Below, one piece after another: positions 13,709-55,401 of a DNA stretch of 64,000 nt. This DNA comes from Deltaproteobacteria bacterium. Its GTDB lineage: Bacteria; Desulfobacterota; Binatia; HRBIN30; JACQVA1. How positions within the stretch are numbered: position 1 is the stretch's first letter; the number at the start of each line of letters is the position of its first letter. Below the pieces are notes generated by a model. It made no database searches and was not told the DNA's origin. It worked only from the letters and a program-made list of their open reading frames with translations. The position numbers and the translations under genes are program-made. The stretch is taken from assembly GCA_016178705.1 (NCBI GenBank), contig JACOST010000028.1:704951-768950 (forward strand), written 5' to 3'.

Positions 13709-14560
13709 ATGGCCTTTCCCATCATTCTGGCTCACGGTATCTGTCGCTTCGACATCCTACTCGGCGGCGGCGAGACTGAAGACAATCGCGACGACGACTC
13801 GCGGCACTACTTCAAGAACATTCGCAGCACGCTGCGCAACGAAGGCGGCTTCACCGTGTATCACACGCGCGTGAACTGGGCCGGCAGCGCCGACGAACGC
13901 GCCGCCGACTTGAAGCCACAGGTCGAACGCGTGCTGCGCGAAACCGGGGCCGCCAAGGTGAACATCATCGCCCACAGCATGGGCGGGCTCGACGTGCGTC
14001 ACCTGCTCTTCAATTGTCGTAACGAGCGGCTGCACGAGCGGGTCGCGTCGGTGACCACCATCGGCACGCCGCACCGCGGCACGCGCTTCGCCGACTGGGG
14101 CATCGAGCACTTCGGCGAGTTGCAGAAGTTTCTCGACGCGGCGCGGGTCGATGTGAAGGGGTTCCGCGATCTGACCACCGTCGAATGCGCGAAGTTCAAT
14201 CATCGCCGTGAAGTGATCGCGTTCGAAGCGATCTACAAGTTCGAGGCCCACAATCCCGGTGACGTGCAGTTCCGAACCTACGCCGGGGCGCAGCCGCTGG
14301 CGCGCGTCTTTGCTCCGTTGAAGGCTCCCTTCGAGTACATCTTAGTGAACGATGGCGACAACGACGGGCTGGTCTCGGTCGCCTCAGCGACGTGGGACCA
14401 CCAGTATTTCGTGCCGCCGGTCCTCAACGCCGATCATCTCAACGAGATCGGCTGGTGGGATGAGGATGAGGAATTTCTGCTGGTCTTCGGCGAGAAGCGC
14501 GCGCACCTGGAGCGGCGCGTGCAAGATTTCTATCTCACCATCGCGCGCAGCTTGCCTTAG
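13709..14560 (+). CDS. Triacylglycerol lipase-like alpha/beta hydrolase
   Basis: A 283-residue protein starting at ATG 13709 with AAAGGAGAGCACC just before it. It begins PIILAHGICRFD, the oxyanion-hole His-Gly of bacterial lipases. The nucleophile elbow AHSMGGLD lies near residue 93, and a TIGTPHRGT segment near 118 is typical of Burkholderia/Pseudomonas-type lipases. The acid and histidine are probably in the NDGDNDGLVS and YFVPPVLNADHLNEIGWW segments. No clear signal peptide, so it may be cytoplasmic or need another export route. It hydrolyses ester bonds, probably of lipids. Confidence 0.88.
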   Translation: MAFPIILAHGICRFDILLGGGETEDNRDDDSRHYFKNIRSTLRNEGGFTVYHTRVNWAGSADERAADLKPQVERVLRETGAAKVNIIAHSMGGLDVRHLLFNCRNERLHERVASVTTIGTPHRGTRFADWGIEHFGELQKFLDAARVDVKGFRDLTTVECAKFNHRREVIAFEAIYKFEAHNPGDVQFRTYAGAQPLARVFAPLKAPFEYILVNDGDNDGLVSVASATWDHQYFVPPVLNADHLNEIGWWDEDEEFLLVFGEKRAHLERRVQDFYLTIARSLP

Positions 14561-17403: not shown

Positions 17404-18888
17404 ATGGAACCTATCGTCTTGATTCACGGATACAGCGCCGAAAGCAAGGAGTCGACGCCGGCCGCTATAGCGAAGATCTACGGCACGCTGCCGGAGGCGT
17501 TGCGTGCGGCCTACGGCAGCGAGGCGGTTGTCGAGATCGACCTGAGCCGCTACGTGTCGCTTGAAGACGGCGTCACGCTCGACGACATCTCGCGCGCACT
17601 CGACCGAGCACTGACCACGGACTTTGCACACCTCGTGCCCGGTCCGTTTCACGTCATCACGCACAGCACGGGAGCACTCGTGATTCGCAACTGGATTCGC
17701 ATGGCAGGCCGTAAGCCGTCGCCGATCCGCAACTTGATTCACTTGGCCGGTGCGCACCTCGGCAGCGGCTGGGCGCATATTGGAAAGGGGCAGCTCGCAA
17801 AGTGGGCGCGGATGGTGTTTCAGGCGGGTGCCGAGCGCGGGGTCCAGGTACTCGACGCGCTCGAATTTGGATCGGATCGCACACTCGATCTCCATCTCCA
17901 CTTCTTGCACTCCGAAACGGCCATGGCGTCCGTCTATGGCGTCCGCGAATACAGCATCGTCGGCTCGCAACCCGCCGTCGAGTGGTACCCGATCCCGATT
18001 CGATATGCGAAGGAGGATGGTTCCGATGGCGTGGTGCGCGTCGCGGCCAGCAATCTCAATATGCACTACTTGCGGTTCGGGCCGACCGCCGCCGCGCTAG
18101 CCCTTGCCTGGAAGGATGCGTCGGGAGAACTCGGCAAGCACCTGCGCCGGCGCGGCGCGCGGCAGAGTCTCTACGAGCTCAAGGACAGCTCCCTGCCCGG
18201 CGAAGGCGAGCGACCGGAGATTCCGTTCGCAATCCCCTACGAGTGTGCACACACCGGCAAGGATCTGGGTATTGTGGTGGGGACGCACCCGCGCGACCAA
18301 GTGCTCCGCCTCGTCCGCCAAGCGCTCGAAACCCCGGCCGCTGAGTGGAGCAGCCGTGTCGCGGACTTCCGCACTGAACTCGATGCGACCTATCAGAAGG
18401 TTCTCACACAGCAGGCGCCGTCATGGTGGAAGAAGTGGATCGAGGAGCCGCGCGCTCAGTACGACCGGCACGCACAATTGATTTTTCGCATCCGCGATCA
18501 GGATGGACGACCGGTGTTGCACCACGACATCTTTCTCGATTCGGTGCAGGGCAAGGGCGATCCGTCGCTTCCAGTGGGCAGTCTGTTCGAAGATAAACAC
18601 GTGAACGAAACGTCGCCCCACATCATCGCGTTCTATCTGCGCGCCGACGCCTTCTCCGCTTCCGACGAGACGTGGGTGCCGCGGATCCCTCAAGTCAACG
18701 GTTGCTTCTTTGAAGTGACCGCCACCGAGCCCGAGACGGACGAGGTGCTCTATCTGCCGATGCGATTTGAATTCAGCAAGGATGACTTGATCGGGTGGGT
18801 GCGGGGGCATCGCACGACTATTGTCGACGTGGAACTGTTGCGCCTGCCCTCGCCGAATGTCTACCGTATGGTCCGCTTCGCGGGATAG
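17404..18888 (+). CDS. Lipase-like alpha/beta hydrolase with extra C-terminal domain
   Basis: A 494-residue protein. It opens with EPIVLIHGYSAES (oxyanion hole), and FHVITHSTGALVIRNWI near residue 88 is the GxSxG-type elbow with His-Ser-Thr-Gly around the nucleophile Ser. The hydrolase part spans about 1-260. The remaining 230 residues contain QLIFRIRDQDGRPVLHHDIFLDS and FEFSKDDLIGW, a beta-sandwich-like region I cannot name. GGTAGGAGCGG gives a good ribosome-binding site for ATG 17404. No signal peptide is seen. Activity on lipids or phospholipids is inference. Confidence 0.75.
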   Translation: MEPIVLIHGYSAESKESTPAAIAKIYGTLPEALRAAYGSEAVVEIDLSRYVSLEDGVTLDDISRALDRALTTDFAHLVPGPFHVITHSTGALVIRNWIRMAGRKPSPIRNLIHLAGAHLGSGWAHIGKGQLAKWARMVFQAGAERGVQVLDALEFGSDRTLDLHLHFLHSETAMASVYGVREYSIVGSQPAVEWYPIPIRYAKEDGSDGVVRVAASNLNMHYLRFGPTAAALALAWKDASGELGKHLRRRGARQSLYELKDSSLPGEGERPEIPFAIPYECAHTGKDLGIVVGTHPRDQVLRLVRQALETPAAEWSSRVADFRTELDATYQKVLTQQAPSWWKKWIEEPRAQYDRHAQLIFRIRDQDGRPVLHHDIFLDSVQGKGDPSLPVGSLFEDKHVNETSPHIIAFYLRADAFSASDETWVPRIPQVNGCFFEVTATEPETDEVLYLPMRFEFSKDDLIGWVRGHRTTIVDVELLRLPSPNVYRMVRFAG

Positions 18889-18899
18889 CGCCGCCCACT

Positions 18900-19637
18900 T
18901 TAGAACCCAATGCGCCGCATCACGGCACGCGGGAGAAACCGAATTACCAGCATTACCCAGCGCCACATCGCCGGGGCGAAGACCACCGGCGTGCCGCGAT
19001 CGATGGCTTTGAGAACCGTCCGCGCGACCGCTTCGGGTTCACCGGCGAACGGGGGCGGGGGCAGACCGGCGGTCATGGCAGTTTTGACGAAGCCGGGTTT
19101 CACCAAGACGACGCGCAAGCCGTGCGCATGGAACTTGTGATCGAGTCCGTTCAGATAGTGTGACAGCCCCGCCTTGGCGGCACCATAGAGGATCACCGGC
19201 TTGCGCGCGCGTTCGCCGGCGACCGAGCTGAACACGCACAACGTGCCGCCACCGGCGGCGAGCAATCGCGTGCGGGCCGCCTCGCAGAAGTGAATCGTGT
19301 TGGTGAAGTCGGCGGTGAGCACTCGATCGCGCAGCGCAGTGTCGCGCTCCAACTCGTCTTCGCCGGCGAACAGGCCGGCGGTGACGACGACCGTGTCGAA
19401 GCCGCCGAGCGTGGTGCTCGCTTGATCGAGCGCGGGTGCAAAGGTCTCGGGCTTGAGCAAATCGCAGTACGCCGTGCCGACCTCGCCGCGCGCACCGTGA
19501 ATCTGCAAGTCGGCGGCACTGCGCGCGAGATCATCAATGTTGCGGCCAAGCAGGAACAGATCGTCGCCGCGTTGAGCCATCAGGCGGGCGAGCGCGCGGC
19601 CCATCCCCTGGGTCGCGCCGAAGCAAACAATTTTCAC
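18900..19637 (-). CDS. dprE2: Short-chain dehydrogenase, DprE2-like (decaprenylphosphoryl-2-keto-erythropentose reductase family)
   Basis: A 245-residue SDR: KIVCFGATQGMGRALA at the N-terminus (TGxxxGxG variant, NAD(P) binding), VVVTAGLFAG, then Ser in CVFSSVAGERARKPVILYGAAKAGL with the catalytic YxxxK. It starts with GTG at 19637, overlapping by 4 bases the stop of the upstream DprE1-like oxidase, a translationally coupled pair as in mycobacteria. Together the two enzymes would epimerise polyprenyl-phospho-ribose to the arabinose form, the donor for cell-surface arabinan. The pairing is the main evidence; the SDR alone would not be specific. Confidence 0.75.
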   Translation of the reverse strand: MKIVCFGATQGMGRALARLMAQRGDDLFLLGRNIDDLARSAADLQIHGARGEVGTAYCDLLKPETFAPALDQASTTLGGFDTVVVTAGLFAGEDELERDTALRDRVLTADFTNTIHFCEAARTRLLAAGGGTLCVFSSVAGERARKPVILYGAAKAGLSHYLNGLDHKFHAHGLRVVLVKPGFVKTAMTAGLPPPPFAGEPEAVARTVLKAIDRGTPVVFAPAMWRWVMLVIRFLPRAVMRRIGF

Positions 19638-21040
19638 GGAGTGTCACCGAACACGCGCACCGACTGCGCGCTGCGCAGCGTGCCGTGCGGATCCCACTGA
19701 CGGCGGACGCGTTGCCACGCTTCGAGGCGCGGCTCCATGCGGCGAAAATCCTCCGCGCGGGTGAAGGCGTCCTTGGCGAGGTACACGCGTCCGCCTCCGG
19801 CGATCACCACTTCGTTGAGCGCGTCGACCAACGCTTGGGTCTGCGCACTCACGGGCATATCGATGGCATACGAAATACCCGGCTTCGGAAACGACAGCAT
19901 GCCTTTGCCCTCGGCGCCGCAGTCCTTGATGACCACCACGAACGACGGCGCGCGCCAACGGCGCAGGACGTCGAGCAGACGATGGTGCGCCGCGTAGCCG
20001 TCAGTCGTTGGAAGCAGGCACTGGTACTGAGTAAACCCGCGTCGACCGTAGAGGCGGTTCCAATCGCGGACGATGTCGAGCGGGTAGAAGAAGCTCTCCG
20101 GATGCACGATGCCGTGCGGCGGGCGCGCCGACATTGCGGCGTACACGAAGCGGTTGAACAGTCGACCCATCCACGGTTGCAGAAACCAATCTGGGAACAC
20201 GGGTGGAACCGGCACCGGCTCGCGGAAGCGCGGCAGCCGCGGCGGCGCCTCACTCGGCTCGGCCCAGCGGCCTTTGTTGAGCAAGCCGCGGCCCATGCGC
20301 GGGCCGAAGTCGAGAAAGTCGGCCCAACTCACTGTCAGTGGCCACTTGGTGCTCGCGGCGCGCACGGCGTCGAGCAACGCGTCGAACGTCGGACAAACTT
20401 CAGTCTCCTGCCAGATCCACGGCGACGGGATGCGTCGCATGCGGAACTCGACCTCGAGAATGTGACCGGTCAGCCCCATGCCGCCCAGGGTTGCGCGGAA
20501 CAGCTCGGGCTCTTGGGTGTCGGAGCATTCGACTACGCGTCCGTCGGCAACCCGCAAGAGCAGACGGGTCACGTGCTCGCCGAAGCAGCCGTCGACGTGA
20601 TGCATCTTGCCGTGCACGTCCGCCGCCACCATGCCGCCGAGCGTGACGAATTGCGTACCCGGTGTGACCGGGGTGAACCACCCGCGCGGCATCGACCATT
20701 GCTTCAGCGCCCGCAGCGACAGCCCCGCTTCGGCGCGAAGGATGCCGGTGGCGGGATCGAAGTGAAGCAGGCGATCCGCTAACACCGAGCCGGCCAGCAC
20801 ATCGCGTTCGACGGCGGGCAAGGACGCGTCGCCATACGATCGGCCGAGTCCGCGGCTGAGCGCGGCGCCGTCGGTGATCGCGGCAAGATCCGCGGAACGC
20901 CGCTCGCGCCCGCGTGCCACGGGATAGCGTCCCCAGCCGCTCAGTTCGGAGAGTGGAACCTCGGCAGTCGCTGGTGCCGTCGCTGGCTCGCGCTGGGTCT
21001 CGGCTTGGCGGTCGCGGATCGAAGTGACGCGCGCGGTCAT
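19634..21040 (-). CDS. dprE1: FAD-dependent oxidase, DprE1-like (decaprenylphosphoryl-ribose 2'-oxidase family)
   Basis: A 468-residue FAD-binding oxidoreductase of the vanillyl-alcohol-oxidase fold, from ATG 21040. Features: LSGWGRYPVARG, RGLGRSYGDASLP, TPGTQFVTLGGMVAADVHGKMHHVDGCFGEHV (FAD-binding core, including the HVDG segment), FRATLGGMGLTGHIL, and a C-terminal substrate domain with FYPLDIVRDWNRLYGRRGFTQYQC and KDCGAEGKGMLSFP. Length and motif order match DprE1. Downstream, overlapping by 4 bases, is the SDR partner. The conserved cysteine targeted by benzothiazinones in mycobacteria needs an alignment to place, although a Cys occurs in the QYQC segment. Confidence 0.82.
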   Translation of the reverse strand: MTARVTSIRDRQAETQREPATAPATAEVPLSELSGWGRYPVARGRERRSADLAAITDGAALSRGLGRSYGDASLPAVERDVLAGSVLADRLLHFDPATGILRAEAGLSLRALKQWSMPRGWFTPVTPGTQFVTLGGMVAADVHGKMHHVDGCFGEHVTRLLLRVADGRVVECSDTQEPELFRATLGGMGLTGHILEVEFRMRRIPSPWIWQETEVCPTFDALLDAVRAASTKWPLTVSWADFLDFGPRMGRGLLNKGRWAEPSEAPPRLPRFREPVPVPPVFPDWFLQPWMGRLFNRFVYAAMSARPPHGIVHPESFFYPLDIVRDWNRLYGRRGFTQYQCLLPTTDGYAAHHRLLDVLRRWRAPSFVVVIKDCGAEGKGMLSFPKPGISYAIDMPVSAQTQALVDALNEVVIAGGGRVYLAKDAFTRAEDFRRMEPRLEAWQRVRRQWDPHGTLRSAQSVRVFGDTP

Positions 21041-21104
21041 GCCTGCACTAGATACCGAATCACTGCGTTGAGTGCCACTGGTTTGCAGCGTGTCCCCTCC
21101 GACC

Positions 21105-21185
21105 TGTAGGGGCGACGCATGCGTCGCCCGCGGATGACACGCGCTAGCACGAACAGCGGAGGACGATGCATGCATCGCCCCTACA
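21105..21185. repeat. REP-like inverted pair, family C
   Basis: TGTAGGGGCGACGCATGCGTCGCCC (21105-21129) and, inverted, GATGCATGCATCGCCCCTACA (21165-21185). Each unit is a palindrome around GCATGC, and the outer ends TGTAGGGGCGA/TCGCCCCTACA also pair. It lies in the 301-base gap between the dprE1-like start and the DUF35 gene. It resembles the other TAGGG-headed repeats in this window but has its own core. No matching RAYT is present. Confidence 0.65.
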
Positions 21186-21341: not shown

Positions 21342-21836
21342 ATGAGCACTGCAACCCGCGAATCGTCCCACGAATCATCCCACGAATCGTCCATCGCGCC
21401 GCTGAGCCAGAAGCAAGTGATGGAGTTTCCCTACAAGCACTCGACCGGCGAAACCGTAGGCCGTTTTCTCGCCGGCCTGAAGTCGCAGAAAAAGATTTGG
21501 GGTCAGCGAGTGAGCGGCCAGGGTGTCGTCGTCCCGCCGACCGGATACTCAGAAATCGACGCGTCAGCCGGCGGCGAGTGGGTCGAGGTCAAAGAGACGG
21601 GGACAGTCACCGCCGTTGCCAAGGTGCACAAACCAGTTGACGCCTTGCACCCGTCGACGACGCCGTTTGCGTTCGTGCTGGTGAAGCTCGACGGCGCGGA
21701 CACAGCGCTCGCGCACATTGTGCGGGACGACCTCGCCAAGCTCCGCGTCGGTACGCGCGTGCAAGCGGTGTGGCAAGCGGACGATCAACGTTGCGGTTCG
21801 ATCCGCGACATCGACTGTTTTCGCGTGATCGCCTGA
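21342..21836 (+). CDS. DUF35 / OB-fold protein, lacking clear zinc cysteines
   Basis: A 164-residue protein, ATG at 21342 with TTGGAGAGCGC before it. FPYKHSTGETVGRFLAGLKSQKKIWGQRV is the N-terminal helix and rubredoxin-like region of DUF35 proteins. The OB-fold follows with VEVKETGTVTAVAKVHKP and FAFVLVKLDGADTALAHIV. The usual zinc-ribbon cysteines (CxxC..CxxC) are missing: GQRVSGQGVVVPPTGY stands in their place. DUF35 proteins partner with thiolase-like proteins as acyl-CoA-binding subunits. The N-terminus carries a threefold ESSH repeat coded by near-identical 12-base units. Confidence 0.8.
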   Translation: MSTATRESSHESSHESSIAPLSQKQVMEFPYKHSTGETVGRFLAGLKSQKKIWGQRVSGQGVVVPPTGYSEIDASAGGEWVEVKETGTVTAVAKVHKPVDALHPSTTPFAFVLVKLDGADTALAHIVRDDLAKLRVGTRVQAVWQADDQRCGSIRDIDCFRVIA

Positions 21837-21856
21837 CGGATCAAGAGGGACCAATC

Positions 21857-22357
21857 ATGAACGAACCGCCGCAGGAACCCGTCAAGTACGTCGAATCCAA
21901 AGTCTACCTGCCGTACGACTACATCGCCGGCGACTACAAGGCGCGTTACCTGGCCGCGCTCAAGGACAAGCGCATCCTCGGCTCGAAGTGCTCGCAGACC
22001 GGCAAGGTGTTCGTTCCGCCGCTGATTTGTTCGCCGGAGAGCTTCGCGCCGTGCACCGAGTTCGTCGACGTTCCGGACCGCGGCGTCATTACCACCTTCT
22101 GCACGGTCAACATCCCGGTGATCGGTCGCGACATCGAGCTGCCGTACGTCGCCGCGTCGGTGGCGCTCGACGGCGCGGCAATTTCGATCTTCGCGCTGAT
22201 CCAAGAGTGCAAACCCGCCGACGTGCGCATGGGCATGCGGGTCGAGGCGGTGTGGAGACCCGATGGCGAGCGCCACGGCGATCACCAGGACATTCTCTAC
22301 TTCCGACCCACGGGCGAGCCGGACGAGCGGCCCGAGTCGTACATCAATCGACTGTGA
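21857..22357 (+). CDS. DUF35 / OB-fold protein with zinc-ribbon cysteines
   Basis: A 166-residue DUF35 protein, ATG 21857 after GAGGGACCAATC. The N-terminal helix YDYIAGDYKARYLAALKDKRILGSKCSQTGKVFVPP and the following PLICSPESFAPC give cysteines in the rubredoxin-like zinc-ribbon arrangement. The OB-fold contains FVDVPDRGVITTFCTVNIP and FALIQECKP. It sits 20 bases after the other DUF35 gene and 7 bases before the first thiolase-like gene. By analogy with ChsH2 and other DUF35 subunits it likely forms a complex with one of the two thiolase-like proteins and holds the CoA ester. Confidence 0.88.
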   Translation: MNEPPQEPVKYVESKVYLPYDYIAGDYKARYLAALKDKRILGSKCSQTGKVFVPPLICSPESFAPCTEFVDVPDRGVITTFCTVNIPVIGRDIELPYVAASVALDGAAISIFALIQECKPADVRMGMRVEAVWRPDGERHGDHQDILYFRPTGEPDERPESYINRL

Positions 22358-22364
22358 GACCAGC

Positions 22365-23486
22365 ATGAGTACCCTGCGCAACGTTGCCATCGTCGGCTTC
22401 GCGCAATTGCCGGTGGTCGCGCGCGACGAGCACCGCATCTCGACCGAGATGCTGTACCCGGTCGTGCGCCAAGCCCTGGCCGATTGCGGTGTCGAGCGCG
22501 ACGCCATCGACTACCAGATCGCCGGCTCCGTCGATTACATGGATGGGCGGCCGTTCGGCTTCGTCAGTGCCCTCGACGTGATGGGCTCGTGGCCGCCGCG
22601 CCAAGATCTCCATCTCGAAATGGACGCCGCGTTCTGCGCCTACTACGCGTGGCTGCGGATGCAAACGGGCGACTGCGACTCCGCACTCGTCGTCGGCCAT
22701 GGCAAGACGTCCGAAGGCGAGCCGGATCGCGTGCTGAATCTACAGCTCGATCCGTACTACCAAGCGCCGATTGGTCTCGACCCCACGTCGAGCTGTGCAC
22801 TGCAGGCGAGCGCGTACATGGCGCGCACGGGCGCGACCGACACCGACCTCGCTGCCATCGCCGCGCGCAACCGTGCCGCCGGCGCGCGCAATTCGGACAA
22901 CCAAGTGCGCAGCGCGGCCTCCGCGACCGAGTTGCAGAAAACGCCGTGGGCGGTCGAGCCGTTGCGCAAAGGCTATCTCCCGCCGGTGGGCGAAAGTGCG
23001 ACGTGCATGATCCTCGCGGCCGAAGGCAAAGCGGAGAAGCTGTGCGATCGCCCGGTGTGGATTCACGGCACGGATCATCGAACGGAGATGCAAACCCTCG
23101 GCGCCCGCGACCTCTCGCGCAGCGCCAGCGCGAAGTTGGCGGGTGAGAAGGCGCTGGCGATGGCCGGCTTGTCGCGGGCGAGCGACGCCGACGTGGTCGA
23201 ACTCTACGCCACCACGCCGGTCGAAGAACTGATCGTGTGCGAAGCTCTCGGGCTGGATGCGAAGGCGGCGCGCCCGGTGATCAATCCATCCGGTGGTCCG
23301 TTATGCGCTCACCCGATCATGAGTACTGGCCTTGTCCGCATGGGAGAAATTTTCCGTCAGCTCTCCGGACGCGCCGGCGACCGGGCGGTAGCCAACGCGC
23401 GGCGCGGCATCGCGCACGCAATGCAAGGGCATTGCTTGCAACAGAATTTGGTCTGGGTTCTCGGGACCGAGCGGAGGTGGTCATGA
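22365..23486 (+). CDS. Thiolase-like lipid-transfer (SCP2-thiolase-type) protein 1
   Basis: A 373-residue protein of the thiolase superfamily: STLRNVAIVGFAQLPV at the start, SALVVGHGKTSEG at the nucleophile-domain end, and C-terminal INPSGGPLCAHPIMSTGLVRMGEIFRQLSG. The usual nucleophile motif (ACASG or similar) is not recognisable before TGDCDSALVVG, so ordinary thiolysis is doubtful. In bacterial steroid degraders, Ltp2-type members with DUF35 partners act as retro-aldolases instead. ATG 22365 is 7 bases after the DUF35 stop. It overlaps the next thiolase-like gene by 4 bases (ATGA). Confidence 0.85.
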   Translation: MSTLRNVAIVGFAQLPVVARDEHRISTEMLYPVVRQALADCGVERDAIDYQIAGSVDYMDGRPFGFVSALDVMGSWPPRQDLHLEMDAAFCAYYAWLRMQTGDCDSALVVGHGKTSEGEPDRVLNLQLDPYYQAPIGLDPTSSCALQASAYMARTGATDTDLAAIAARNRAAGARNSDNQVRSAASATELQKTPWAVEPLRKGYLPPVGESATCMILAAEGKAEKLCDRPVWIHGTDHRTEMQTLGARDLSRSASAKLAGEKALAMAGLSRASDADVVELYATTPVEELIVCEALGLDAKAARPVINPSGGPLCAHPIMSTGLVRMGEIFRQLSGRAGDRAVANARRGIAHAMQGHCLQQNLVWVLGTERRWS

Positions 23487-24634
23487 AGCGCCCGGTCGCA
23501 GTGGTCGGGGTCGGGCAGACCCATCACACGACGCGCCGCTCCGATGTGAACATCGCGGGCTTGGTGCGCGAGGCCGTCGATCTGGCGTTGCGCGATGCCG
23601 GGCTCGAACACAAGGACATCGACGCGATCGTCATCGGCAAGGCGCCGGACATGCTCGAAGGCGTGGCGCAGCCGGAGCAGTTTCTCGCCAGCGCCGTTGG
23701 CGCGCACATGAAGCCGATGCTGCGCGTGCACACAGCCGGATCAGTCGGCGCATCGACCGCGCTCACCGCGGTGACGCACGTGGCATCCGGACTGTACGAT
23801 CGCGTGCTCACCATCGCCTTCGAAAAGCAGTCGGAAGGCAACGCGATGTGGGCGCTGTCGCCGAACATGCCGTTCGTCGCGCCGCTGGTCGCCGGCGCCG
23901 GCGGGTTCTTCGCGCCGTATTGTCGCGCGTACATCGCCAAGACGAACTGCCCGCCGCACATTGGCCCGATGGTGGCCGCCAACGCGCGCGACAACGCCAC
24001 GCGCAACGAGTACGCGCACCTTCGCGAGCCGATGACGGTCGACGACGTGCTGAATTCGCCGATGCTGTGGGACCCCATCCGCTTCGGCGAAACCTGTCCG
24101 TCGTCGGACGGCGCGATCGCGATGGTGGTGGCGTCGGAGGCGACTGCGAAGAAGGGCCCGCGCAAGCCGGCGTGGATCAAGTCGGGGTACTCGTACGCGG
24201 AGGCGATGTGGGTGCCGGGGCGCGATCAAGTCAGTCCGCGCGCCGGCCGGGTGTGTTCGCAGGCGGTCTACGACAAGGCCGGCATCACCGATCCGTGGAA
24301 TCAGATCGACGTGGCCGAGATCTACGTACCGTTCGCCTGGTTCGAACCGATGTGGCTCGAGAACCTCGGATTCTGTGCGGTCGGCGAAGGCTGGAAGATC
24401 GTCGATCGTGGCGAGCAGAAGTTCGGGGCGCACTTGCCGATCAATCCCTCCGGCGGGGTGTTGTGTTCGAATCCGATCGGCGCGTCGGGGATGATTCGAT
24501 TGGGCGAAGCCGCGCTACAGGTGATGGGCCGCGCCGGCGCGCATCAAGTCGAGGGCGCCAAGACCGCGCTCGGTCACGCCTACGGCGGCGGCGCGCAATA
24601 CTTCGCGATGTGGATCGTCAGCAGCGAGCTGTAG
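23483..24634 (+). CDS. Thiolase-like lipid-transfer (SCP2-thiolase-type) protein 2
   Basis: A 383-residue thiolase-superfamily protein: KRPVAVVGVGQTHH at the start, a core segment VHTAGSVGASTALTAVTHVASG in which Gly86 stands where the nucleophile Cys belongs, and C-terminal INPSGGVLCSNPIGASGMIRLGEAALQVMGRAG. A HP-to-NP change is also visible in the C-terminal loop that normally supplies a catalytic His. It therefore cannot be a classical thiolase. A lyase or aldolase role with DUF35 partners fits better, by analogy with Ltp2/ChsH2. Its ATG overlaps the stop of the preceding thiolase-like gene, and GGAGG lies just upstream. Confidence 0.88.
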   Translation: MKRPVAVVGVGQTHHTTRRSDVNIAGLVREAVDLALRDAGLEHKDIDAIVIGKAPDMLEGVAQPEQFLASAVGAHMKPMLRVHTAGSVGASTALTAVTHVASGLYDRVLTIAFEKQSEGNAMWALSPNMPFVAPLVAGAGGFFAPYCRAYIAKTNCPPHIGPMVAANARDNATRNEYAHLREPMTVDDVLNSPMLWDPIRFGETCPSSDGAIAMVVASEATAKKGPRKPAWIKSGYSYAEAMWVPGRDQVSPRAGRVCSQAVYDKAGITDPWNQIDVAEIYVPFAWFEPMWLENLGFCAVGEGWKIVDRGEQKFGAHLPINPSGGVLCSNPIGASGMIRLGEAALQVMGRAGAHQVEGAKTALGHAYGGGAQYFAMWIVSSEL

Positions 24635-24738: not shown

Positions 24739-25551
24739 ATGTCTGAGCCAGCAATCTTGTACGAGAAGCGCGACGGCATTGCTGTCGTGACGATGAATCG
24801 TCCGGAATTTCGCAACGCGATCAATCCCGAGATGTTGTGCCGCCTCGCCGATGCGTGGCAGGACATCAACGACGATCCGACCGTGCGCGTCGCCATTCTC
24901 ACCGGCGCTGGCGACAAGGCCTTCTGCGCCGGCGCCGATCTCGATCGCCTCGTGCGCATGATGCAGGGCTTGCGTCCGCCCGAGAGCGAGTACGACGAAC
25001 GTCTCAAGAACGACGTCAGCATCATCTACAAGGGGTTGTTGCGAAACTACCGCGTCACCAAGCCGCTGATCGCCGCGGTGCGCGGCTTCTGCGTTGCCGG
25101 GGGCACCGAGCTGCTCACCACCACCGACATTCGGATCGCCGGCGACGATGCTCGCTTCGGTCTCGCCGAGGTGAAGTGGAGCCTGTTCCCGATGGGTGGC
25201 TCGACCGTGCGCTTACCGCGGCAGATCTCGTACTGCAACGCGATGGAGATCCTGCTCACCGGCGAGCAACTCTCCGCCGAGCGCGCGCTGCAGATGGGAT
25301 TGATCAATAAGGTCGTCGCACCCGAGCAAGTCATGCCGGAAGCGCTGCGCTACGCCCGCATCATGAATGAGGCGGGCCCGCTCGCCGTCCAAGCCGTGAA
25401 GCGCTCGGTGGTGGAAGGGATCGGCCTCTCGCCGGAACAGGCTTTGGAGAAGGAACTCGAGATCGGCATCCCGGTCTCGATGTCGGAAGATTGTCGCGAA
25501 GGCACCAAGGCCTTCAAGGAAAAACGCAAGCCGATTTTCAAGGGACGGTGA
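24739..25551 (+). CDS. Enoyl-CoA hydratase/isomerase family protein
   Basis: A 270-residue crotonase-superfamily protein, ATG 24739 after GATGAGGAGTGAA. The CoA-binding and oxyanion-hole segments are typical: VVTMNRPEFRNAINPEM, KAFCAGADLDRLV and VRGFCVAGGTELLTTTDIRIA. The region AEVKWSLFPMGGSTVRLPR replaces the usual EVxxGLxP-GG motif: the first Glu is present but the second catalytic Glu position is not obvious. Hydratase, isomerase or another acyl-CoA reaction are all possible. It follows the DUF35/thiolase block and probably belongs to the same pathway. Confidence 0.9.
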   Translation: MSEPAILYEKRDGIAVVTMNRPEFRNAINPEMLCRLADAWQDINDDPTVRVAILTGAGDKAFCAGADLDRLVRMMQGLRPPESEYDERLKNDVSIIYKGLLRNYRVTKPLIAAVRGFCVAGGTELLTTTDIRIAGDDARFGLAEVKWSLFPMGGSTVRLPRQISYCNAMEILLTGEQLSAERALQMGLINKVVAPEQVMPEALRYARIMNEAGPLAVQAVKRSVVEGIGLSPEQALEKELEIGIPVSMSEDCREGTKAFKEKRKPIFKGR

Positions 25552-25594: not shown

Positions 25595-26941
25595 ATGAGA
25601 AGCCACATCTTGACCCCTGTCGCGCTTGCGCTCTTGCTTGGCGCGTTCACCCCAAGTCGATCCGCGCAGGCGGCGGGCGAAGAAATCGCTCCCGGGTTGC
25701 ACGTCGGCGACACGTTGGATCAAAGCAATGCCGACCTCGCCAAGGATCTGCTGCCGCCGGAGATTTTGAAGCACTACAAGAATGGCGACTACCGCAACAA
25801 GATCGTGGCGTACCCAACCGGCAACGCGCATTGGGAGAAAGCGTTCACGGAAGCGACCGAGAAGAACGCGGCCCAGCTCGACGTCGACGTGCGCGGAACG
25901 ATCGTCGAGAAGGGCACCGGCAAGCAGCCGGCGTACTACTACGGTCTGCCGTTCCCCATCATCGACGAGAAGGATCCCAAGGCCGCGGTCAAGATCGTCT
26001 GGAATCAGTTTCTGGCCTACTGGGCGGGTGGTAACTCGTACAACAAAACGCTGGTGGTCATGCTCAATCCGAAGAGTACCGACCGGACCCTCGGCGCCAA
26101 CGGCTGGTTCAATTTCCTCGATGGGCAGAGCGTCAAATACCGCCAACCGAATCCGATGAACTTGCAGAGCCAGTTTCTCGGCGTGACGACGATGCCGGCC
26201 GATCTGCAAGGCACCGCGTCGCTCTCGTGGCGCTATCGCGACGCCGACAAGCGCGATTCGGTGTGGGCCTTCATCCCCGCGTTGCGCCGCGTGCGCGCGG
26301 TCAGTCCCGCCAATCGTTCCGATGGCTATCTGGGGTCGGACATCAGCGGCGACGACGGCTTCTTCTTCGACGGCAAACCGGAGGACTTCGAGTGGAAGCT
26401 GGTCGGCAAACGCGACGGGCTCCGCTTGGTCGATCCCAACGCGATCGCGGGTCCGTTGAATATTCCGCCGGCACCGGGTGGTGGCTGGAGCACGCTCAGC
26501 GCGATCAACCCGCCGACGCTGGGATACGTCACGCCAGGCTGGACGGGCATCACCTGGGCGCCGGTCGATTTGATGTTGGCTAAGCGACAGTTTTGGATCA
26601 TCGAGGCCATCCCGCACGACAAGTACTACCTCTACGGCCGCCTGCAGTTGTGGATCGATGCCGAGACCTGGGACGGCGCATGGAATAGCAAGTTCAACTG
26701 GACCGGCGAGCAAGTCCATACCTACCAACTCACCGCACGCGTGAATCACAAGGCGGGAGATGGCGCTGACCCCGAGTGGCTCCCGGCTGGCACCATGGTG
26801 TACGCCTGTGCCGAGAATACGAAGATGAACCGCGCCACGTGCAGCGGGATGCGCGCCGATGCCCAGTCGCCGTTCTATCGCCGCGTGCCGTTGGAACCCG
26901 AACTATTCGACTCGACCGCGCTGACGCGCTTCGGAAAATAG
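25595..26941 (+). CDS. DUF1329 domain-containing exported protein 1
   Basis: A 448-residue protein with a clear signal peptide (about 1-28, ...SAQAAGEE). The DUF1329 body shows PAYYYGLPFPIIDEKDPKAAVKIVWN, SWRYRDADKRDSVWAFIPALRRVRAV and YLGSDISGDDGFFFDGK near the middle, and a C-terminal beta-rich region with RLQLWIDAETWDG. DUF1329 proteins resemble LolA/LolB-type lipid carriers in fold and often sit in gene clusters for sterol or hydrophobic-compound breakdown. A role in moving a hydrophobic substrate across the envelope is inference. A second family member lies at 54043-55338. Confidence 0.9.
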   Translation: MRSHILTPVALALLLGAFTPSRSAQAAGEEIAPGLHVGDTLDQSNADLAKDLLPPEILKHYKNGDYRNKIVAYPTGNAHWEKAFTEATEKNAAQLDVDVRGTIVEKGTGKQPAYYYGLPFPIIDEKDPKAAVKIVWNQFLAYWAGGNSYNKTLVVMLNPKSTDRTLGANGWFNFLDGQSVKYRQPNPMNLQSQFLGVTTMPADLQGTASLSWRYRDADKRDSVWAFIPALRRVRAVSPANRSDGYLGSDISGDDGFFFDGKPEDFEWKLVGKRDGLRLVDPNAIAGPLNIPPAPGGGWSTLSAINPPTLGYVTPGWTGITWAPVDLMLAKRQFWIIEAIPHDKYYLYGRLQLWIDAETWDGAWNSKFNWTGEQVHTYQLTARVNHKAGDGADPEWLPAGTMVYACAENTKMNRATCSGMRADAQSPFYRRVPLEPELFDSTALTRFGK

Positions 26942-54042: not shown

Positions 54043-55338
54043 CTACTCACTCAATTTGGTGAGGTGCTCGGGGCTGAACCACTCATCCGCAAAATCCCGC
54101 ACGAACGTCTCGCGGGTGTAACGTCCGGTGGGCGTGCCGCGATTCTCCCGTTCGTTGATCCCGGTCATCAGGAACGCCGTCGGGGCGGCGAACTGGCCGT
54201 CCGGCGTGCGCCCCCAGCCGGTGCCGCAGAAATTGGTTTGGAACTGGTCGCCGCCTTTCGAGTACCCGATCTTATAGTACGCGTGGTAGAGTTCGCGGTC
54301 GATGTACAGGATGACCTTGCCGAGGTCGTAGTATGGATCGCGCGGCTTGCCCTCCACGATCCACACCGGCCGCCGCACGAACACGTTGCCGAGCGTCAGC
54401 CACGGCGCGCCGGTTGCGCCCGGCACTTCGTAGACCGCGCGGTTGTATGGCACCTCCATGACCCAACGCTGACCCTTCTCGCGCTTGAGCGGGCGCGCGT
54501 ACGGCGAGTCGGTGCCGAGCGGCCCGATCACTTCGCCGCTGCCCACCAGTTTCCACTCGAAGTATTCGACCTTGCCGTCGTAGCAATCGGCGTCGTCGCC
54601 GTAGACTTCGAAGCCGGGGATGCGTTCACCACGCGTCGATGTGCGCACGCGCCGCACGCGGCGGATCGACGGCAGGTACGCCCACACTTGGTCCCACGTC
54701 GTCCAGTCGTTGAACCGCCAGGTCAGCACGCCGACGCCGGCCACGTCTTTCGGTTCGGTGGCCGCCGCGAGTTGGCGCGACTCGGTGTTGTCGGGCAGCG
54801 TCTTCGGAGGCACGCTGGTTGTCCCGAGATAAAATTTGTACGAGAGAAAAATCTGCACCGAGCGCAACACCTGGCTGTCGGCGGTGACGTCGGCGAGTGA
54901 GAAGTAGTGGATCGCACCGTCGCCCTGCATCTGGCGCAACCGATAGTTGTGCAGGATCTTGGCCCCGGAGAGCGGATCGCCGGCGTCGATCGTTGGGAAC
55001 GGCAAGCCGTACAGCGCCGTCGGACGCGCCTCGCCGCCGGCCTCCTTCAGCCCGCCGGTGACCACGTCGATGGCATACTTACCGGCGTTGTTTTCACTCG
55101 CCTTCCAAAACCGATCGGTGTAGTTCGCCCGGAACTTCTTCGCATCGACCGGGACGACTTTGAAGTAATACTCGCCTGCCTTGAGCCGGTGGTAGATCGG
55201 CTCGGGCAACAACTCTTTGTACTGCTCGGCGTTGTCCTTAGTCAGCATCCAGGCGCCGGCCGGGTCCGCCGCCGCCGCCGCGGAGCGGATCAACGTGGCG
55301 ACCAACAGCGTCGCGATCATTCCACCGGCGGCGCGCAT
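54043..55338 (-). CDS. DUF1329 domain-containing exported protein 2
   Basis: A 431-residue protein; ATG 55338 gives a tidy signal peptide (AAGGMIATLLVATLIRSAAAAADP). DUF1329 body: LTKDNAEQYKELLPEPIYHRLKAGEYYFKVVPV, TALYGLPFPTIDAGDPLSGAKILHN, LTWRFNDWTTWDQVWAYLPSIRRVRRV and RPVWIVEGKPRDPYYDLGKVILYIDREL. It shares the YGLPFP-(T/I)ID and W-(A/F)-(Y/F)-(L/I)-P-(A/S)-(L/I)-RRVR segments with the protein at 25595 but is clearly a separate branch. It probably handles a hydrophobic compound in the periplasm or outer membrane. It is divergent from sppA, 63 bases apart. Confidence 0.9.
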   Translation of the reverse strand: MRAAGGMIATLLVATLIRSAAAAADPAGAWMLTKDNAEQYKELLPEPIYHRLKAGEYYFKVVPVDAKKFRANYTDRFWKASENNAGKYAIDVVTGGLKEAGGEARPTALYGLPFPTIDAGDPLSGAKILHNYRLRQMQGDGAIHYFSLADVTADSQVLRSVQIFLSYKFYLGTTSVPPKTLPDNTESRQLAAATEPKDVAGVGVLTWRFNDWTTWDQVWAYLPSIRRVRRVRTSTRGERIPGFEVYGDDADCYDGKVEYFEWKLVGSGEVIGPLGTDSPYARPLKREKGQRWVMEVPYNRAVYEVPGATGAPWLTLGNVFVRRPVWIVEGKPRDPYYDLGKVILYIDRELYHAYYKIGYSKGGDQFQTNFCGTGWGRTPDGQFAAPTAFLMTGINERENRGTPTGRYTRETFVRDFADEWFSPEHLTKLSE

Positions 55339-55401
55339 GCCTTGCCTGTCTGCTGACGACACGACTATAGTTTCCGCGCTCGCAAGCCAAGAGGAGATCT
55401 C

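Follow-up and report, generated by a model that had tools for sequence, protein, structure and literature searches.

The ltp4-ltp3 module of actinobacteria in a Binatia-type variant with two DUF35 genes, a probable retro-aldolase of beta-branched acyl-CoA

Analyses of a 64,000-nucleotide stretch of Deltaproteobacteria bacterium DNA (class Binatia; assembly GCA_016178705.1, contig JACOST010000028.1, positions 704,951 to 768,950 of the forward strand), hereafter the window, indicated that four adjacent genes coding for a pair of DUF35 proteins and a pair of thiolase-fold proteins are, by sequence comparison, a Binatia-type form of the ltp4-ltp3 module known from actinobacteria, that is, a variant of a partly known system. 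Together with an enoyl-coenzyme A (CoA) hydratase of the EchA19 type encoded downstream, this Ltp4-Ltp3-double-DUF35 set is rather likely to make the retro-aldol cut of beta-branched 3-hydroxyacyl-CoA. The five genes, in window coordinates, are:

21342..21836, plus strand: DUF35a (P0001, 164 residues), a protein of the oligonucleotide/oligosaccharide-binding (OB) fold; Pfam OB_ChsH2_C PF01796, 43.1 bits, 4e-11; no zinc cysteines
21857..22357, plus strand: DUF35b (P0002, 166 residues), OB-fold with a degenerate zinc ribbon; PF01796, 51.9 bits, 7.2e-14
22365..23486, plus strand: Ltp4-like thiolase-fold subunit (alpha; P0003, 373 residues); Thiolase_C_1; no nucleophile Cys
23483..24634, plus strand: Ltp3-like thiolase-fold subunit (beta; P0004, 383 residues); Thiolase_C_1; Gly86 in place of Cys, Tyr281 kept
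24739..25551, plus strand: EchA19-type enoyl-CoA hydratase (crotonase family); PRK07799, 320.6 bits, passing the cut-off of 316

The initial annotation had described four plus-strand genes in the order DUF35-DUF35-thiolase-thiolase, and this layout was recovered at 21342-24634. The overlapping starts that it reported hold for the two thiolase genes, which share 4 bases (ATGA), but not for the other pairs, which are separated by gaps of 20 bases (DUF35a and DUF35b) and 7 bases (DUF35b and P0003). The host genome of 6.1 Mb contains 18 DUF35 matches.

P0004 belongs to the NCBIfam family PRK08313 (604.5 bits against a cut-off of 514) and the family nearest to P0003 is PRK07937; we take the former to be Ltp3 and the latter to be Ltp4. 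A quick tree of 64 rows (15 Ltp4-like, 15 Ltp3-like, 14 distant gene pairs and, as outgroup, six other thiolase-fold proteins of the genome) placed the Ltp4-like and the Ltp3-like rows each on one side of a branch supported at 100, with the window protein inside, and both clades contain actinobacterial counterparts from loci of the same gene order. The same pair was found in the plasmid collection in Streptomyces clavuligerus, Tsukamurella, Nonomuraea and Nocardia farcinica, the best place per species showing 51.0-63.4% identity to P0004, and in all four a single upstream protein holds both DUF35 domains. The annotated S. clavuligerus and Tsukamurella loci code for one OB-fold protein and two thiolases, and a crotonase, an AMP-binding protein and an F420-dependent oxidoreductase are encoded in the vicinity of the Tsukamurella locus.

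A published Mycobacterium tuberculosis gene table lists echA19 (Rv3516), the F420-dependent oxidoreductase Rv3520c, Rv3521, ltp4 (Rv3522) and, elsewhere in the table, ltp3 (Rv3523), and in excerpts on Nocardioides simplex ltp4 and ltp3 are adjacent by locus tag with echA19 in the same region. In passages of a review (PMC6678751), Ltp3-Ltp4 is described, crediting Wilbrink 2012, as a heteromeric aldol-lyase for C24-branched sterols whose C24-C25 cut follows hydration, a carboxylation step preceding; passages of PMC7807495 likewise class ltp3 and ltp4 as aldol lyases, and excerpts of published work give both Ltp3 and Ltp4 as essential for branched-chain sterols. PMC10398937, the one paper found to mention ltp3, ltp4 and DUF35 together, deals in its passages with another aldolase, and the product of interest there was still formed in the ltp3 and ltp4 knock-outs. 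The literature passages found assign Ltp3-Ltp4 by genetics and hold no biochemistry of the pair, and among the titles and abstract beginnings listed by searches that leave out most subscription journals there was no paper on the four-gene module or on the wider family described below. Homology, the conserved order and the base Tyr of P0004 support both the aldolase reading and the idea that the two DUF35 proteins and the two thiolase-like ones belong to one module. The suggestion that the complex is of an undescribed kind had to be given up, as the set matches the actinobacterial ltp4-ltp3 genes with double DUF35, the aldol-lyase named in the review passages.

A comparison of an alignment of four P0003-like proteins with named genomes gave 360 relatives, and the best 80 of these were combined with four loci of the plasmid collection and three found in genomes of the class to which the window belongs, making a set of 87 loci. 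The order DUF35a-DUF35b-ltp4-ltp3 is kept in 87/87 as far as the contigs reach, which argues that the gene set is not a product of chance. Four separate genes are present in 49 loci, a fused DUF35 in 33, and five are cut by contig ends; three of these five lack DUF35a and two the ltp3-like gene, one of the latter having a fused DUF35, which brings the loci with DUF35a and DUF35b fused to 34 of the 87. By record title the hosts are Binatia/Deltaproteobacteria, Actinomycetota, Chloroflexota, Myxococcota and a few others. The module also occurs in two metagenome-assembled genome (MAG) records titled Klebsiella pneumoniae (L057) and Bifidobacterium breve (L103), which look like mislabelled metagenome bins.

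That both thiolase-like proteins lack the ACASG-type Cys, with Gly86 in the second, as noted in the initial annotation, was borne out by alignment with the six other thiolase-fold proteins of the genome. Gly86 of P0004 and Ala88 of P0003 fall in the nucleophile column, where four of the six have Cys (L011 and L012, NYCASG; L014, NYCATG; L015, NNCATG); L016, which is Ltp2-like, lacks Cys there, and L013 has a gap. In the family sets, window proteins included, all 84 Ltp3-like sequences have Gly in this column and all 88 Ltp4-like ones have Ala or Gly, and the nucleophilic Cys of classical and SCP2 thiolases was found in neither P0003 nor P0004 nor either set. No catalytic Cys was accepted elsewhere in P0003: its Cys91, three residues past Ala88, was rejected as a replacement nucleophile because the two nearest orthologues have Ala there.

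According to passages of PMC12329534, Ltp2 uses Tyr294 of its YDHF motif as base, Tyr344 as acid and His296 in the oxyanion hole, and Sal the catalytic pair Tyr302 and Cys304 of YDCY, with Gly at the former Cys position. The Ltp2 numbering was mapped through L016, the Ltp2-like protein of the same genome (380.6 bits against 6ok1). Tyr281 of P0004 occupies the column of the Ltp2 base Tyr294 in the local motif YVPF instead of YDHF, and is kept in 83/83 Ltp3-like sequences with that column; Gly86, Tyr281 and Asn330 are invariant in the 29 beta rows of the tree. Asn330, where thiolases have the His of GHP, is present in 82/82 Ltp3-like sequences with the column, and Pro283 in 83/83 where Ltp2 has His296 and Sal Cys304. 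Of the Ltp2 catalytic tyrosines that the initial annotation proposed to look for, the base was thus matched, but the acid Tyr344 has no counterpart: the Asn330-Pro331 region of P0004, gapped in the alignment, holds no Tyr under any reading. A candidate acid, judged from conservation, is Tyr367, in the Ltp3-like branch only (81/82 Ltp3-like sequences; Phe, Trp or Met in 15/29 beta rows). Membership of P0004 in Ltp2 or in Sal was rejected, the second catalytic residues being missing. L016 itself (C29:22037-25480, overlapping the DUF35 locus L005) has YDHF and carries Phe at the position of the Ltp2 acid Tyr344.

The alpha line shows eight different residues at the Tyr281 column among 29 rows. 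In the 12 Ltp4-like sequences of the Binatia-like group, by which we mean the window and its nearest named relatives (Candidatus Binatia, Deltaproteobacteria and HRbin30 records), the column holds Gly (5), Met (2), Ala (2), Tyr (1), Cys (1) and Phe (1), and His occurs in 69 of the remaining 76. Because Tyr281 is invariant in the Ltp3-like and variable in the Ltp4-like subunit, the beta subunit (P0004) is probably the catalytic one. P0003 as a second catalytic subunit acting through its own Tyr281 was discarded, its Binatia-like relatives having Met, Cys, Gly, Ala or Phe; the alpha-subunit site may have a role outside Binatia.

One of the two DUF35 proteins had been annotated with its zinc cysteines, and this was not confirmed, since P0001 has none and in P0002 only Cys45 of the zinc ligands is in place. 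An intact zinc ribbon in P0002 was rejected because the second position is Thr48, there is no CxxC and the zf-ChsH2 match of 22.0 bits stays below the cut-off of 23.2. Within the family, the window's own proteins included, the CxxC..C motif is present in 66/88 DUF35b and 0/85 DUF35a sequences; CxxC is lacking in all twelve Binatia-like DUF35b rows compared, P0002 included, and L018 also lacks the first Cys. The other alpha/beta loci (see below) have 35 DUF35 domains scoring 80 bits or more, every one of them with the full motif, so loss of the zinc motif is special to the Ltp4-Ltp3-like branch.

AlphaFold2 single-chain models, for which 30 of the 84 (P0004) and 30 of the 88 (P0003) family sequences were used, reached predicted local distance difference test values of 89.6 and 84.9, respectively. 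The best solved structures by Z-score were 6esq for P0004 (54.1) and 6et9 for P0003 (47.0), both of the archaeal thiolase/3-hydroxy-3-methylglutaryl (HMG)-CoA synthase complex. Ltp2 (6ok1) scored 46.5 with P0004 and 39.1 with P0003, and Sal (9myr) 46.4 and 40.2; P0004 matched benzoylsuccinyl-CoA thiolase at 51.0 and PhlC (5m3k) at 49.1. Foldseek listed the same kinds of structures in a different order. Matches of this kind between predicted models and solved structures indicate fold, not function.

The hydratase gene begins 104 bases past that of P0004, its start having been set by eye at the ATG that follows AGGAG; in the output of the program the open reading frame (ORF) starts at TTG 24724. 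A homologue (1e-15) is present in 36/84 loci. It lies directly downstream in every one of the seven Binatia-like loci whose sequence reaches far enough (L052, L053 and L055-L059; L051 and L054 end too soon), and in Actinomadura mostly about 2.7 kb upstream on the opposite strand. The genome's best PRK07799 match, L131 (C28:96277-97077), contains one in-frame TGA, the mark of a broken gene or of a sequencing error.

With regard to the substrate, the window's genome has no KshA_C match, and the best match of the extradiol dioxygenase model TIGR03213 there is 26.5 bits, compared with 349-357 in three Actinomadura, which are also below the cut-off of 366. KshA_C, searched in 50 of the 80 module-bearing genomes, gave 22 matches, seven of them at 284.8-305.5 bits and all seven in Actinomycetes by record titles, and the nine Binatia-like genomes gave one match of 108.9 bits; many of the genomes scanned are MAGs whose completeness is not known, and the ring enzymes were represented by these two models only. 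On account of the missing KshA_C match and the 26.5-bit TIGR03213 match, beta-branched 3-hydroxyacyl-CoA is favoured as the substrate class; ring degradation without KshA and this dioxygenase is possible.

The proposal is founded on the genes, their homology and order, the conserved residues and the predicted single-chain folds, and from these we infer a complex, its reaction, its substrate class and the roles of the subunits. The hydratase would hydrate a 2-enoyl-CoA, giving, where the beta carbon is branched, a tertiary 3-hydroxyacyl-CoA. A tertiary alcohol of this kind is not oxidisable for thiolysis: no ketone would be formed and no normal thiolase cut could follow, so a retro-aldol cut would solve the block. 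This cleavage would be carried out by a heteromer of the alpha and beta thiolase-fold subunits to which both OB-fold DUF35 proteins are docked, Tyr281 of P0004 removing the proton from the 3-hydroxyl and backbone groups near Gly86 holding the oxygen. The enolate of the leaving acyl-CoA would then be protonated, the products being a ketone and acetyl- or propionyl-CoA, and P0003 would act as a partner whose own site has decayed. Extending the retro-aldol chemistry from C24-branched sterols to other branched acids would be a step made by analogy.

The same complex might instead act on sterol or steroid-like side chains whose rings are not degraded by the known aerobic route. The genetically characterised relatives, in the literature passages seen, act on C24-branched sterols, and the genome has the Ltp2-like YDHF protein L016 beside the DUF35 gene L005; the KshA_C and extradiol-dioxygenase results given above, both for this genome and for the nine Binatia-like genomes against the seven Actinomycetes, speak against it, and we regard it as unlikely. 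A complex that forms C-C bonds, by acyl transfer or by aldol addition, in the manner of the archaeal thiolase/HMG-CoA synthase/DUF35 complex or of PhlABC, would agree with the closeness of 6esq and PhlC among solved folds. Claisen condensation or acyl transfer in those systems requires a Cys nucleophile, but the column holds Gly or Ala throughout both families, and a hydratase neighbour fits bond formation poorly; aldol addition may represent the reverse direction of the cut. We give this bond-forming complex very little weight, and about as little to the view that neither thiolase-like protein is a catalyst, the two acting as scaffolds or lipid carriers. The latter draws on the scattered residues at the Tyr281 column of the 12 Binatia-like alpha subunits and on the NCBIfam name of P0003's nearest family, 'lipid-transfer protein', but is opposed by the three residues kept in every beta row and by the essentiality of Ltp3 and Ltp4 for branched-chain sterols stated in the excerpts cited above.

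Several results weigh against retro-aldol cleavage by an Ltp4-Ltp3 type complex. P0003 scored 349.5 bits with PRK07937, its nearest model, missing the cut-off of 419 (next model, 136.9 bits), and also stayed under it when the whole genome was searched with that model; from this score P0003 appears to be a sister lineage and not a member. The equation of PRK08313 and PRK07937 with Ltp3 and Ltp4 is assumed, and neither the compared set nor the tree rows include a genetically tested Ltp3 or Ltp4 sequence. Since the loci were picked for their likeness to P0003, they are close relatives and their number is uninformative about distant ones. The structures nearest by Z are thiolases, not aldolases, and P0004, with Pro283 and Asn330-Pro331, has none of the second catalytic residues of Ltp2 (Tyr344, His296) or Sal (Cys304). 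The hydratase reached 309.7 bits with the EchA19 model NF051848, missing the cut-off of 400, and is only the third-best PRK07799 match of the genome; 48/84 loci have no hydratase homologue within the sequence available, which bears on the tightness of the link. The results with the two ring-enzyme models suggest that the sterol role known for Ltp3-Ltp4 does not carry over to the window. In passages of PMC6273163, echA19 is non-essential for sitosterol degradation in M. smegmatis, its loss being partly inhibitory.

When 198 genomes of the phylum were searched with P0003, matches at 1e-20 turned up in 54, including the genome of the window, and many of these matches are adjacent gene pairs. Fourteen distant pairs, whose A (alpha) and B (beta) labels were set by a motif ahead of the tree, were included in it: a branch supported at 99 had the 15 Ltp4-like rows and one member of each pair on one side, and the 15 Ltp3-like rows and the other members grouped on another. 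Because the members of the pairs divide between the Ltp4-like and Ltp3-like sides, one old duplication probably made the alpha and beta lines. None of the 58 alpha/beta rows has Cys at the nucleophile column; the beta-type L042, L044 and L045 have Gly in the column and Cys one position before it. In 17/20 regions both genes occur with at least two DUF35 domains (D) in the orders D-A-B-D or A-B-D-D, the exceptions being L143 (alpha only), L157 (cut by a contig end) and L158 (one DUF35).

Related pairs of alpha and beta subunits without the Cys, in most cases accompanied by two DUF35 genes, are present in several phyla. Two large Cupriavidus necator plasmids (L159 and L160), one of them typed as conjugative, carry A-B-D-D sets, and on both a Cys-bearing SCP2-type thiolase nearby serves as a built-in control. 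The Rhodococcus plasmid L161 breaks the two-plus-two rule with a beta gene, one DUF35 and a neighbour weakly matching the alpha model (79 bits). We tentatively propose, at somewhat less than even likelihood, that the module is a branch of an old, widespread superfamily in which a Cys-free pair (catalytic beta, decayed alpha) and two DUF35 proteins form general retro-aldolases, allowing bacteria to get past beta branches when they degrade acyl-CoA; sterols would be one substrate among others. The breadth of this Cys-free paired superfamily and its two DUF35 partners is the unexpected part.

The comparison names a likely catalytic subunit and residue, assigns the two DUF35 partners to the module and finds the same kind of pair in genomes without a KshA match. 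It makes bacterial breakdown of beta-branched acyl chains without thiolysis a testable proposition, and may explain why Cys-less proteins are annotated as 'thiolase' or 'acetyl-CoA acetyltransferase'.

In the neighbour clusters genes were chosen by GC content at third codon positions, and in the window this missed P0003 and took a reverse-strand ORF. The other named neighbours among those scanned were acyl-CoA synthetase-like, F420/PPOX, nitronate monooxygenase, P450 and housekeeping genes. The window also contains two DUF1329 genes (25595-26941 and 54046-55362), relatives of the first being found in L052-L054, on the opposite strand and upstream of the module. A short-chain dehydrogenase gene adjoins one for a FAD/ALO-type oxidase on the minus strand at 18903-21175, an arrangement that we take to be reminiscent of DprE2/DprE1, and two lipase-like proteins with weak palmitoyl-thioesterase matches are encoded at 13709-14557 and 17404-18885.

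Compared with the actinobacterial system of Ltp3-Ltp4 (Rv3523/Rv3522), an OB-fold protein of the Rv3521 type and EchA19, the window has homologous subunits in the same gene order, and both have two DUF35 domains and an EchA19-type hydratase nearby. The window differs in its split DUF35 genes, the lost zinc ribbon of DUF35b and the decayed Tyr281 column of alpha, and nothing in its genome points to the known aerobic route of steroid ring degradation. Ltp2-ChsH2(DUF35) (Protein Data Bank, PDB, 6ok1) is alike in thiolase fold, DUF35 partner and base Tyr column; it has one kind each of thiolase-like and DUF35 protein, whereas the window has two of each and lacks His296 and Tyr344. Sal-Shy(DUF35) (PDB 9myr) shares Gly at the nucleophile column and the base Tyr, but Cys304 of the Sal YDCY motif corresponds to Pro283 in P0004, and in Shy a single chain combines DUF35 with MaoC. 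The thiolase fold and a DUF35 partner are also common to benzoylsuccinyl-CoA thiolase, PhlABC and the archaeal thiolase/HMG-CoA synthase complex; all three work with the Cys nucleophile that the window proteins lack.

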